64,000 bases of DNA, taken from Pedobacter roseus (GTDB taxonomy: Bacteria > Bacteroidota > Bacteroidia > Sphingobacteriales > Sphingobacteriaceae). The DNA lies in contig NZ_CP060723.1 in NCBI RefSeq assembly GCF_014395225.1, positions 5,456,001-5,520,000 of the forward strand, in the 5' to 3' direction. The notes under the pieces are model-generated. The model did not search any database and had not been told where the DNA came from. It was given only the letters and a program-made list of their open reading frames with translations. The translations under genes were made by a program, and so were the position numbers. This document shows, piece after piece, positions 60,785 to 63,519 of this stretch; position 1 is the first letter of the stretch; every line of letters starts with the position of its first letter.

Positions 60785-61546
60785 TTATATGGCCTTTTCT
60801 GTTAAATATTTCCAGTACCTTTTAGGTACATGCTGCAAGTGCAGTTTTGTGTTTTTGCGGGCCACAATGTTGGCACTTTTAAAATAATCTTTCCAAAGCG
60901 TGGCATACAACGCTTCGCCTTCGCCCATTAAAACCGGAGCAGGATTTTGCTTATTTACGCCATTGCTAAAACTGATGGTGATTTCTTCAACCGTATTTAA
61001 ATTATAATGCAAACCATATTTACGTTTCAAATCATAAATTACCCATTGTTGATCGGCGTAACGGTTTTTAAAGTGATTGGATATTAAGGGCAGTACATTG
61101 AAATCAGGATCAATACCTGCATAAAAAATCCCATCGCCTGTTTTTTGAAAACGAATAAAGGCTTCCATGCGGTGTTTTTCGCGCTCTACACTTTTGGCAT
61201 ATTTGGCAAGTGCAATTACATGTTCATTGCCATAATTGTTTTCGGCACCGGCCGGATGCTGAAAAATATAGATGCTAAATTGAAAGAGGTGATGATATGC
61301 TTCCGGAATTTCTGACAAATAACTGCAATAATATTTGCGCAGCCAATCCTTTCTCAGTTTCTTTTCCAATCCCGCCCAAACCCGTTCTGCTTTTTCTGCA
61401 TCAGTGTTCACGGTAAAGCTTTCTACAAAAGCTTCAGGCTGGAAAATTTCAGTCGATTTTAACACAACTTTTCCCGGTTTGCGCTCAAACCACTCGAAAA
61501 CAGCTGTTAAAAGGCCCTGAAGGGAGCCATCGAAAATGTAAGTCAT
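60785..61546 (-). CDS. TIGR03915-family putative DNA-repair protein
   Basis: This 253-residue protein has the opening TYIFDGSLQGLLTAVFEWF and the late motif HYNLNTVEEITISF, with a C-terminus PKRYWKYLTEKAI, as in the TIGR03915 family. That family is found almost always next to the radical SAM TIGR03916 family and is predicted to be linked to uracil-DNA-glycosylase-like repair. The activity is unproved. The partner gene lies 104 nt upstream, with a dispersed repeat between them. Confidence 0.87.
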   Translation of the reverse strand: MTYIFDGSLQGLLTAVFEWFERKPGKVVLKSTEIFQPEAFVESFTVNTDAEKAERVWAGLEKKLRKDWLRKYYCSYLSEIPEAYHHLFQFSIYIFQHPAGAENNYGNEHVIALAKYAKSVEREKHRMEAFIRFQKTGDGIFYAGIDPDFNVLPLISNHFKNRYADQQWVIYDLKRKYGLHYNLNTVEEITISFSNGVNKQNPAPVLMGEGEALYATLWKDYFKSANIVARKNTKLHLQHVPKRYWKYLTEKAI

Positions 61547-61562
61547 TAGTTGTTTGTTAAAT

Positions 61563-61643
61563 CGTCATCTCGACTGAAGCGCAGCGAAATGGAGAGATCT
61601 ATGATAGATTTCTCGACTGCGTTGCACTCCGCTCGAAATGACG
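61563..61643. repeat. CGTCAT...ATGACG repeat (81 nt) between the repair-pair genes
   Basis: It starts CGTCATCTCGACTGAAGCG and ends CTCGAAATGACG; CGTCAT and ATGACG are perfect inverted ends. It almost fills the spacer of an otherwise compact gene pair. Confidence 0.75.
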
Positions 61644-61650
61644 AGCGCTT

Positions 61651-62907
61651 TTAAAACAAAATCATCTGGTTACTATCCGTTTTTAAATATTTACTCTGGC
61701 TTTCGGCCAAAATAAAAGCTTTAATCTGTGTGCCCTGATAATCTTTCAATTGGTATGGACTATCTAAACAGGTGATAAAGTGTTTTGCCCGGTTATAAGC
61801 CACACCGATTTTCTTTAACTGATCAATCCTTAGTTTGCCGAATTTCCGGGCCTGCACAATTTTTTTGGCAGACATTACGCCAATACCCGGAATACGGAGA
61901 ATCATGTTATAATCGGCAGTATTAATATCTATCGGGAAATGCTGCATGTTGCGGATCGCCCAGCTTAGTTTTGGATCAATATCCACATCCAGGTTTGGGT
62001 TGGCATCATTTAAAATTTCCTGCACCTTAAAACCGTAAAAGCGCATTAACCAATCGGTTTGGTATAATCGGTTTTCTCTTAATAATGGTGGCTGGGTTCC
62101 CAAAATTGGCATCCGTGTATCGTTACTAATGGGTACATAACCCGAATAATAAACCCTTTTGAGCGCAAAATTTTTATAAAAGGCATTGGCCGTGTACATA
62201 ATGTCTTTATCACTTTCGGGTGTTGCGCCAATTACCATTTGTGTGCTTTGACCAGCAGGTACAAATTTGGGCACATGTTTAATCAGTTTTTTATCTGCGG
62301 TAAACTGCGTAATCTGTTGCTGTACAAAGCCCAGTGGTTTAATCACATCTGCGTGGTTTTTTTCAGGTGCCAAAAGTTTTAAACCCGCTTCGGTAGGCAT
62401 TTCTAAATTAATACTCATCCTGTCAGCGTAAAGGCCAGCCTCTTTAATCAGCTCATCGCTGGCTCCCGGAATGGTTTTCAGGTGGATGTAACCATTGTAA
62501 TTCTGCTCCAGCCTTAATTTTTTTACCACTAAAAGCAAACGCTCCATGGTAAAATCGGCATTTTTGAAAATCCCCGAACTTAAAAACAGCCCTTCAATAT
62601 AATTGCGGCGGTAAAAGTTCATGGTAAGGTCTACCACTTCATCTACCGTAAAGGCCGCACGTTTAATGTCGTTGCTTTTCCGCGATACACAGAACAAACA
62701 ATCGTATATACAATGGTTGGTTAAGAGGATTTTTAAAAGCGAAACACAACGTCCATCTTCGGTATAAGTATGGCAAATGCCGGAAGAGTGACTGTCGCCC
62801 AGCCCTTTAGTAGTGTTTTTTCTTGTGCCGCCGCTTGATGAACAAGAAACATCGTATTTAGCGGCGTCAGCAAGAATATTAAGTTTTTCACGAATTCGAT
62901 CAGACAT
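61651..62907 (-). CDS. Radical SAM protein with helix-hairpin-helix, TIGR03916 family (putative DNA modification/repair)
   Basis: This 418-residue protein begins with the family block LNILADAAKYDVSCSSSGG and has the radical SAM cluster CxxxCxxC at C66, C70 and C73 (NHCIYDCLFC). A helix-hairpin-helix (ILRIPGIGVMSAKKIVQ) near the C-terminus should bind DNA. Family members are predicted to modify or repair DNA with a TIGR03915 partner. ATG 62907 is chosen over a TTG seven codons earlier that falls in the promoter box. Confidence 0.92.
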   Translation of the reverse strand: MSDRIREKLNILADAAKYDVSCSSSGGTRKNTTKGLGDSHSSGICHTYTEDGRCVSLLKILLTNHCIYDCLFCVSRKSNDIKRAAFTVDEVVDLTMNFYRRNYIEGLFLSSGIFKNADFTMERLLLVVKKLRLEQNYNGYIHLKTIPGASDELIKEAGLYADRMSINLEMPTEAGLKLLAPEKNHADVIKPLGFVQQQITQFTADKKLIKHVPKFVPAGQSTQMVIGATPESDKDIMYTANAFYKNFALKRVYYSGYVPISNDTRMPILGTQPPLLRENRLYQTDWLMRFYGFKVQEILNDANPNLDVDIDPKLSWAIRNMQHFPIDINTADYNMILRIPGIGVMSAKKIVQARKFGKLRIDQLKKIGVAYNRAKHFITCLDSPYQLKDYQGTQIKAFILAESQSKYLKTDSNQMILF

Positions 62908-62933: not shown

Positions 62934-63000
62934 GCTTAATAACTAAAAATATTAGTAAATAGATTTGTTAAATCTATTCGTTTAAGGAATAATCGTAATC

Positions 63001-63519
63001 TTAACTAAAACTGTTTGAAGGATTAAAGGGCAACTGATGAACCATTTGATAGTTTGCCTGATAGTATTGTAATGCTGAAAAAAATCGGTCTGCTTCAGTT
63101 TCATGATTTTTAAGCGGACTGAAATTGGCCACAAAATCAGGATTGTTAAATGCAATTTGATAAAAATAACCACCATTAAAGTTGTCAAACATTTCGGTTA
63201 CGCTCGTTACATTTTCCCAACTGCAAAAAAAATCTGTTCTTCGGTACAAGAAAGAAGTACTTTTTAGTTTAATGCTGATTCCGTTTTCGTTGATCAGCAC
63301 TGTACTGTGCACAAATATTTGCGTTCTGGTTATCCATAATAAAAACAGCGCCATCGAAATCATTGCTGTAGCAACTAAAAATAAGGTGCTAAGTTCTGAA
63401 AGTGAAGTGGGTAAATTAAAAAGGCAATACAACATTAAGGATATAAAAATCGCGGGTATGCCAACCATTGCGATTAATAACACACTATTTTTGTGGTATT
63501 TTAATTTATAGGAATGCAT
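63001..63519 (-). CDS. Small membrane protein of unknown function
   Basis: This 172-residue protein has two membrane helices (about 12-35 and 42-63) and a soluble C-terminus with strands (FVHSTVLINENGISIKLKS, DFFCSWENVTSV) resembling a PH-like fold of bacterial membrane proteins. I do not assign a family. It is a single gene upstream of the repair pair on the same strand, about 70 nt from its promoter box. Confidence 0.75.
   Translation of the reverse strand: MHSYKLKYHKNSVLLIAMVGIPAIFISLMLYCLFNLPTSLSELSTLFLVATAMISMALFLLWITRTQIFVHSTVLINENGISIKLKSTSFLYRRTDFFCSWENVTSVTEMFDNFNGGYFYQIAFNNPDFVANFSPLKNHETEADRFFSALQYYQANYQMVHQLPFNPSNSFS

Follow-up and report, generated by a model that had tools for sequence, protein, structure and literature searches.

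Adjacent genes for a radical SAM/helix-hairpin-helix (HhH) protein and a partner with a DUF4130 domain have been catalogued as the NCBIfam families TIGR03916 (rSAM_link_UDG) and TIGR03915 (SAM_7_link_chp), and the former model name already records a linkage of radical SAM and UDG. The subject of the present study is such a pair in Pedobacter roseus, located in a window, i.e., the whole stretch of DNA analysed, of 64,000 nt (contig NZ_CP060723.1, 5,456,001-5,520,000; the host genome is one 6.33-Mb contig); all coordinates below are window positions. COG4277, a HhH protein by its name, is taken here to be identical with TIGR03916. PMC8565304 shows that, in Bacteroidetes, the operators bound by non-canonical LexA proteins of the S24 type are CTAA-N5-TTAG or GGA-N5-TCC. 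Sphingobacteriaceae are among the groups with large CTAA regulons there, GGA-N5-TCC or diverged motifs are reported for other families, and COG1573-COG4277, an operon of two genes labelled 'UDG base excision', is among the predicted SOS targets. The P. roseus pair is the same kind of operon with the same CTAA-N5-TTAG operator, but its host is devoid of UdgX, and since the partner has no uracil-glycosylase domain, the 'UDG base-excision' label misfits this copy.

UdgX, a protein whose domain has no counterpart in the P. roseus pair, was described in PMC10359453 to excise uracil and then to bond covalently to the abasic site via a loop histidine; its physiological role is called largely unknown there, and RecA-dependent or proteolytic resolution was suggested. 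In another phylum, the Clostridium acetobutylicum operon CAC3343-CAC3344 encodes a radical SAM protein of the same name and, after it, a protein whose function is not known, and PMC3828012 gives putative LexA control for it; this likeness is one of names. An Acinetobacter gene of the same name was reported to be upregulated at 8% humidity (PMC13130816).

Both families and the predicted SOS operon are thus already known, and the pair is a further copy of an uncharacterised kind. We read it as a putative SOS-induced two-gene DNA-repair operon which would apply radical chemistry to a lesion of uracil or abasic-site type with the help of an auxiliary cluster, a reading to which, as a whole, we give a probability of about 0.5. 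A preliminary description of this DNA had presented the pair as a putative DNA-repair pair and the best candidate in the window for an undescribed enzymatic system, its chemistry not being established. The latter stands as far as the literature was searched: no paper naming TIGR03915 or TIGR03916, no chemistry for a radical SAM/DUF4130 pair, and in full-text search no paper combining UdgX with 'radical SAM' was found. 'Undescribed' is only half right, because the operon predicted in PMC8565304 is taken to be this pair.

The gene pair and its SOS-type promoter

The features of the operon and its promoter are as follows (L, G and H numbers below label loci, genomes and phage records).

61651..62907, minus strand: TIGR03916 radical SAM/HhH gene, 418 aa (NCBIfam and Pfam)
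60785..61546, minus strand: TIGR03915/DUF4130 partner gene, 253 aa (NCBIfam and Pfam)
62943..62955: SOS operator CTAA-N5-TTAG, with the minus-strand sequence CTAATATTTTTAG (motif published in PMC8565304)
62926..62933, minus strand: likely -7 promoter element TATATTTG, inferred, with similar elements in L039, L043, L061 and L068 (by eye)

The order on the minus strand is TIGR03916 gene, 104-nt spacer, TIGR03915 gene, which is the order and strand of the NCBIfam pair, differing from it in that the commoner spacer is short and this one holds a dispersed repeat. The preliminary description had given the coordinates of both open reading frames (ORFs) exactly, and its family assignment is upheld by scores far above the curated NCBIfam cut-offs: 676.5 bits against TIGR03916 (cut-off 343.5) and 268 bits against TIGR03915 (cut-off 112.25). 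In Pfam, the radical SAM protein matches Radical_SAM and HHH_3 (30.3 bits, cut-off 27), and the partner DUF4130 with 170.5 bits as its sole match at E 0.1. The TIGR03916 ORF starts with ATG at 62907; a TTG start yielding 425 aa is also open, and homologues, e.g., L143, begin at the ATG. The nearest named relative found, Pedobacter psychrotolerans, shows 94% identity.

That the two families co-occur widely, as the preliminary description claimed, is confirmed by profile matches above the curated cut-offs in 247 Bacteroidota genomes, of which 80 possess TIGR03916, 82 TIGR03915 and 78 both. In 73 of these 80 the two genes are neighbours in the same orientation, no more than 600 nt apart; TIGR03915 is 778-1390 nt off in three, on another contig or strand in two, and missing in two, where the TIGR03916 match reaches the contig end. 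Four genomes present TIGR03915 alone, among them G052 and G060, where the radical SAM gene has been split or cut short and the DUF4130 partner is kept (G052:C1:118044-119254, G060:C21:33701-34039). At the loci of named genomes the partner lies downstream on the same strand in 79/80, at -4 to 4552 nt and in four of these at more than 1 kb; at L140 no TIGR03915 partner was detected within 5.9 kb downstream. Among 299 Pseudomonadota genomes, TIGR03916 is followed by TIGR03915 in the same orientation, at no more than 6 kb, in all 53 that possess it, the distance being at most 600 nt in 49; three have TIGR03915 above cut-off without TIGR03916.

The operator lies 35 nt from the ATG of the TIGR03916 gene, just ahead of the likely -7 element; the Bacteroidota -7 consensus is TAnnTTTG. 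Upstream regions of up to 150 nt each were compared for 110 loci (the window locus, 29 others and 80 from contig collections, a few not from Bacteroidota), and CTAA-N5-TTAG was present in 33, as opposed to 0.62 on average and three at most in 50 dinucleotide shuffles; TTAC-N5-GTAA occurred in none of the 110. The host genome moreover encodes a helix-turn-helix (HTH, read by eye) and S24 regulator of 258 aa (L252; S24 29.5 bits), a candidate non-canonical LexA-like regulator by its sequence, whose own gene has CTAA-N5-TTAG boxes at -110 and -44. A UmuD-like gene, as its sequence was read (L251), bears at -41 a 13-mer identical to the window operator, and an ImuA homologue (62.3 bits, below the cut-off of 150) stands behind a CTAA box. 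Three extended sites have no evident repair link, namely L246 (no long ORF found nearby), L248 (no family) and L249 (a 2'-5' RNA ligase-type gene). Directly beside SOS-type boxes are also a DUF763 gene (L247) and a HEAT-repeat gene whose AlkD-type match stays below threshold (L245); both may be further SOS genes.

In Pseudomonadota, up to 200 nt ahead of the radical SAM start were inspected at 40 of the 53 loci, 30 with and 10 without the UdgX fusion treated below. LexA boxes precede the gene in 34/40, GTTC-N7-GTTC in either direction in 28 and CTGT-N8-ACAG in six; the mononucleotide-shuffle expectation for the three LexA patterns is 0.075, 0.155 and 0.12 loci, and the Gram-positive pattern GAAC-N4-GTTC was found in none of the 40. 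We regard it as very probable that the pair is under SOS control and acts on DNA. The DNA-repair role of the preliminary description is well supported by SOS-type operators in two phyla, LexA control predicted elsewhere, the fusion to UdgX and the HhH domain.

Partner fusions, conserved residues and the proposed chemistry

On five of the six Pseudomonadota plasmids inspected, the product of the gene 3' of TIGR03916 joins DUF4130 to a TIGR03914 domain, the family named UdgX by NCBI; DUF4130 stands alone on the sixth plasmid (Acinetobacter baumannii) and, by annotation, on a plasmid of Spirosoma (Bacteroidota). The fusion is present in 38/53 Pseudomonadota TIGR03916 genomes, and in a further one (G445) it is cut by a contig end, a UdgX match opening another contig. 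Control searches with all three families gave matches in Caulobacter vibrioides. Seen from the other side, 40 of 54 UdgX matches are attached to DUF4130 above its cut-off, the remaining 14 including G445 and G322, the latter beside a sub-cut-off DUF4130 remnant. All 30 fusions read have kept GEQPG, and 29 the histidine of the crosslinking loop (21 with strict [KR][RK]R[ILVM]H, eight with R-[IL]-H and one change), L231 being without the loop. The solved structures nearest to the fusion L145 are UdgX entries, the best being PDB 6ajo (E 2.4e-44), which we take to be the enzyme of Mycobacterium smegmatis. These operons share with the P. roseus pair the radical SAM family, the DUF4130 domain and, in most, LexA boxes upstream, and differ from it in the UdgX domain on the partner.

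Residue conservation in the radical SAM protein was assessed in 127 sequences (80 named-genome and viral loci, 40 Pseudomonadota, six plasmid loci and the window protein; L138 and L142 were dropped as short, and L031-L060 were not used), and Cys22, Cys45, His46, Cys54, Cys66, Cys70, Cys73 and His142 are invariant in all of them.

62689..62712, minus strand: radical SAM motif Cys66-x3-Cys70-x2-Cys73 (127/127 sequences)
62746..62844, minus strand: codons 22-54, which include the additional invariant residues Cys22, Cys45, (His46) and Cys54 (127/127 sequences)
61810..61935, minus strand: C-terminal helix-hairpin-helix, residues 325-366 (Pfam HHH_3; weak ComEA-like match to 2duy, E 0.014)

In lipoyl synthase and MiaB, N-terminal cysteines ligate a second cluster, and because three further invariant cysteines exist here besides the CX3CX2C motif, it is plausible that Cys22, Cys45 and Cys54 ligate an auxiliary iron-sulfur cluster. 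The AlphaFold model has a mean pLDDT of 73.8, and its structural matches in Foldseek and VIA are generic radical SAM folds; by sequence, the best solved structure was only the weak ComEA-like HhH (E 0.014).

The model of the DUF4130 partner is better (mean pLDDT 88.3, pTM 0.82), good to about residue 190 and lower after that. Its top four PDB rows in Foldseek represent three entries, 8a8k (twice), 7d62 and 5yh1, presumably all DHH-family proteins, of which only 8a8k falls below E 0.001 (E 5.5e-4, TMq 0.43). VIA-align returned 8a8k with Z 8.6 (root-mean-square deviation, rmsd, 5.7; 194 aligned), RecJ 2zxo with Z 7.8 (rmsd 5.1, 189 aligned) and a replisome chain, which we take to be Cdc45, with Z 7.2 (rmsd 6.3, 195 aligned), Z values below 8 being common without kinship. 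By sequence, the window partner has no DHH tripeptide, and no solved structure was convincing (best E 1.1). When 58 DUF4130 members were compared with Pfam, admitting E values as high as 10, no second family stood out coherently, and no DHH match was among 25 of the 42 families, ordered by member number, DUF4130 being the only one of these common to more than three partners. In hhalign, 63 DUF4130 sequences scored against RecJ (25) and NrnA (5) alignments like five column shuffles, a comparison of little power, the RecJ-NrnA control itself reaching only 12.7% probability. As sequence support and a DHH motif are lacking, DHH kinship is only a lead, and that DUF4130 might be a Cdc45-like, inactive, DNA-holding relative is a weak one drawn from the model.

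Taken together, the proposed mechanism would run as follows. Damage would induce the pair via the LexA-like operator in the promoter; the HhH domain and DUF4130 would hold damaged DNA, probably single-stranded or gapped; the three extra cysteines would bind an auxiliary 4Fe-4S cluster, and a 5'-deoxyadenosyl radical would attack a lesion in a base or sugar, of uracil or abasic-site type, the outcome being direct reversal or processing of the lesion. In Pseudomonadota UdgX would supply lesion recognition or capture, and in Bacteroidota the core pair would work without it. As judged from sequence, the chances appear evenly balanced that the enzyme uses an auxiliary cluster and treats a lesion in a base or sugar by radical chemistry, and uracil or an abasic site as the substrate class is a tentative proposal that may well prove wrong. 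Rather improbable is a further step, in which the pair is the missing partner of UdgX, shares its uracil or abasic-site lesions, and in fused operons uses its radical chemistry to release or rebuild the covalent UdgX-abasic crosslink, so that an adduct otherwise without issue becomes an intermediate of repair; UdgX-free pairs, such as the present one, would then be an ancestral or stripped form acting directly on the same lesion.

Several observations speak against the SOS-repair reading or its generality. The CTAA box is missing from 77/110 homologous upstream regions, GGA-N5-TCC occurs in only 12/110 (shuffle mean 1.26, maximum four), and no LexA box of any pattern tried precedes the gene at six of the 40 Pseudomonadota loci (L216, L229, L234, L235, L242, L243). 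The number of boxes in the window is within chance (two versus 1.55 expected, equalled by 45/100 shuffles), as is suggested for the host genome by seven extended boxes versus six for the reversed control; because box frequency is so near chance, it is position, together with homologues and neighbours, that carries the SOS-regulon claim. UdgX (TIGR03914) has no match in the window partner nor anywhere in the host genome, and none above cut-off was found in 14/53 Pseudomonadota TIGR03916 genomes, hence the core pair can exist without UdgX and the uracil/abasic specificity is a guess. Finally, the auxiliary cluster is deduced from conservation only, and the cluster region is poorly modelled, segments 18-31, 34-79 and 100-113 having pLDDT below 50.

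Among other explanations, direct reversal of UV dimers in the manner of spore photoproduct lyase (SPL), with DUF4130 as the lesion binder, survives best and is nonetheless unlikely. A radical SAM enzyme with a DNA-binding HhH domain under SOS control would suit it, but SPL needs a downstream H-donor cysteine, and none of the cysteines beyond C73 in the window protein is invariant (C380 in 57/127). The three extra N-terminal cysteines and the nature of the fused domain, UdgX, likewise disagree with it; the absence of SPL from the structural matches listed for the model proves nothing. SplB is a radical SAM enzyme of SOS regulons too, but it constitutes a separate family and is listed in PMC8565304 as an SOS gene (COG1533) separate from COG4277.

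We consider it improbable that the pair is a conventional uracil base-excision system, as the COG1573-COG4277 operon is named in PMC8565304. The fusion of UdgX to the partner in 38 Pseudomonadota genomes favours this, yet the window partner consists of DUF4130 only, the host is without a TIGR03914 match, among the 25 of 42 families listed for 58 partners DUF4130 alone is shared by more than three, and a glycosylase pathway needs no radical SAM enzyme. There is equally little to recommend DNA modification instead of repair, such as sulfur insertion or hypermodification via a sacrificial auxiliary cluster: the extra N-terminal cysteines ahead of CX3CX2C recall lipoyl synthase and MiaB-type enzymes, and lipoyl synthases top the structural list (8trw, Z 13.2, rmsd 3.6, 210 aligned), but this is only about 1 above HydE and biotin synthase, generic radical SAM folds scoring nearly alike, and damage-type control in several phyla fits repair better.

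The palindromic repeat in the spacer

61563..61643, in the 104-nt spacer: 81-nt palindromic dispersed repeat, CGTCAT...ATGACG (genome matches, hairpin)

The 81-nt CGTCAT element, noted in the preliminary description as splitting the pair, is indeed present and dispersed genome-wide. With up to three mismatches allowed, the window contains a single occurrence of its first 38 nt, and the whole genome holds at least 47 BLAST matches, with 40 of 158 first-look candidates scored; some of the matches are portions of a single copy or the two strands of one place. Of 30 copies fetched, 29 fall outside ORFs of at least 120 aa. As a short palindrome with many intergenic copies it is REP-like (repetitive extragenic palindromic), and the spacer is predicted to fold at -42.5 kcal/mol (z -6.2, hairpin). 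Clusters were also seen, with four partial copies about 174 nt apart (G000:C1:422055-422618) and three within 1.1 kb (G000:C1:1536241-1537324).

The spacers of the same-genus relatives L043 and L039 measure 19 and 25 nt, which makes 'split' an apt word and the element best read as an ordinary dispersed repeat, a secondary insertion after the operon had formed; it may tune the mRNA and would stand outside the enzyme system. Four further Pedobacter loci have spacers of 5-14 nt, and that of Pedobacter chitinilyticus (L068) is 145 nt long without such a palindrome. The preliminary description went further and suggested that the repeat separates the expression of the two genes, which is unsupported because no terminator was found in the spacer; a terminator function was accordingly dropped. 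Nor did the scan list a sigma-70-type promoter, Bacteroidota promoters being outside its scope, and other loci have similar palindromes or longer spacers. Recruitment of the repeat to decouple the genes is thus improbable: the hairpin is strong and a GTCAT...ATGAC palindrome recurs in the spacer of five other loci (six of 104 with the window locus: L034, L103, L109, L114 and L119, the last four from Chryseobacterium or Epilithonimonas), but the element is a genome-wide repeat lying mostly outside ORFs, and 73/104 spacers are of 60 nt or less, 30 of those abutting or overlapping, with 31 longer.

Some longer spacers contain small ORFs, read by eye. In Flavobacteriaceae (L085, L093, L094, L095, L098, L105) an ORF of about 50 codons with a pattern like LGY-x3-FKS-x2-KK possibly encodes a small SOS protein, and in Hymenobacteraceae-type spacers (L038, L121, L127) a different small Cys-containing ORF lies between the two genes.

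Neighbours, possible transfer and significance

Upstream of the pair an ORF of 172 aa (63001-63519, minus strand) has no NCBIfam match and no Pfam match above cut-off; 3' of the pair, on the same strand, lies a GroES gene, and a GroEL-like ORF was read there by eye. Identity to the window protein is 69% for Acinetobacter copies and 60-63% for those of Moraxella, Brachymonas and Psychrobacter, as opposed to 47-51% for the remaining plasmid-borne copies listed from Pseudomonadota, for which reason transfer between phyla is possible for the former (L080, L082, L143, H41, H42). H41 and H42, two 240-kb entries named Acinetobacter phage, may be plasmids. Searches of viral and phage sequences retrieved two viral contigs (one partial) and ten phage records, eight of them unannotated faecal 'Bacteriophage sp.' scaffolds, and give no sign of a viral origin of the system, which was discarded.

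With UdgX and the radical SAM/DUF4130 pair, two orphans meet in one SOS operon with a possible invariant second cluster. The fusion of the partner to the self-crosslinking UdgX in other bacteria hints at the role of the pair, and the shared SOS operon indicates to experimenters the substrates and proteins to bring together and the conditions of induction to use, the link to UdgX being a testable entry.

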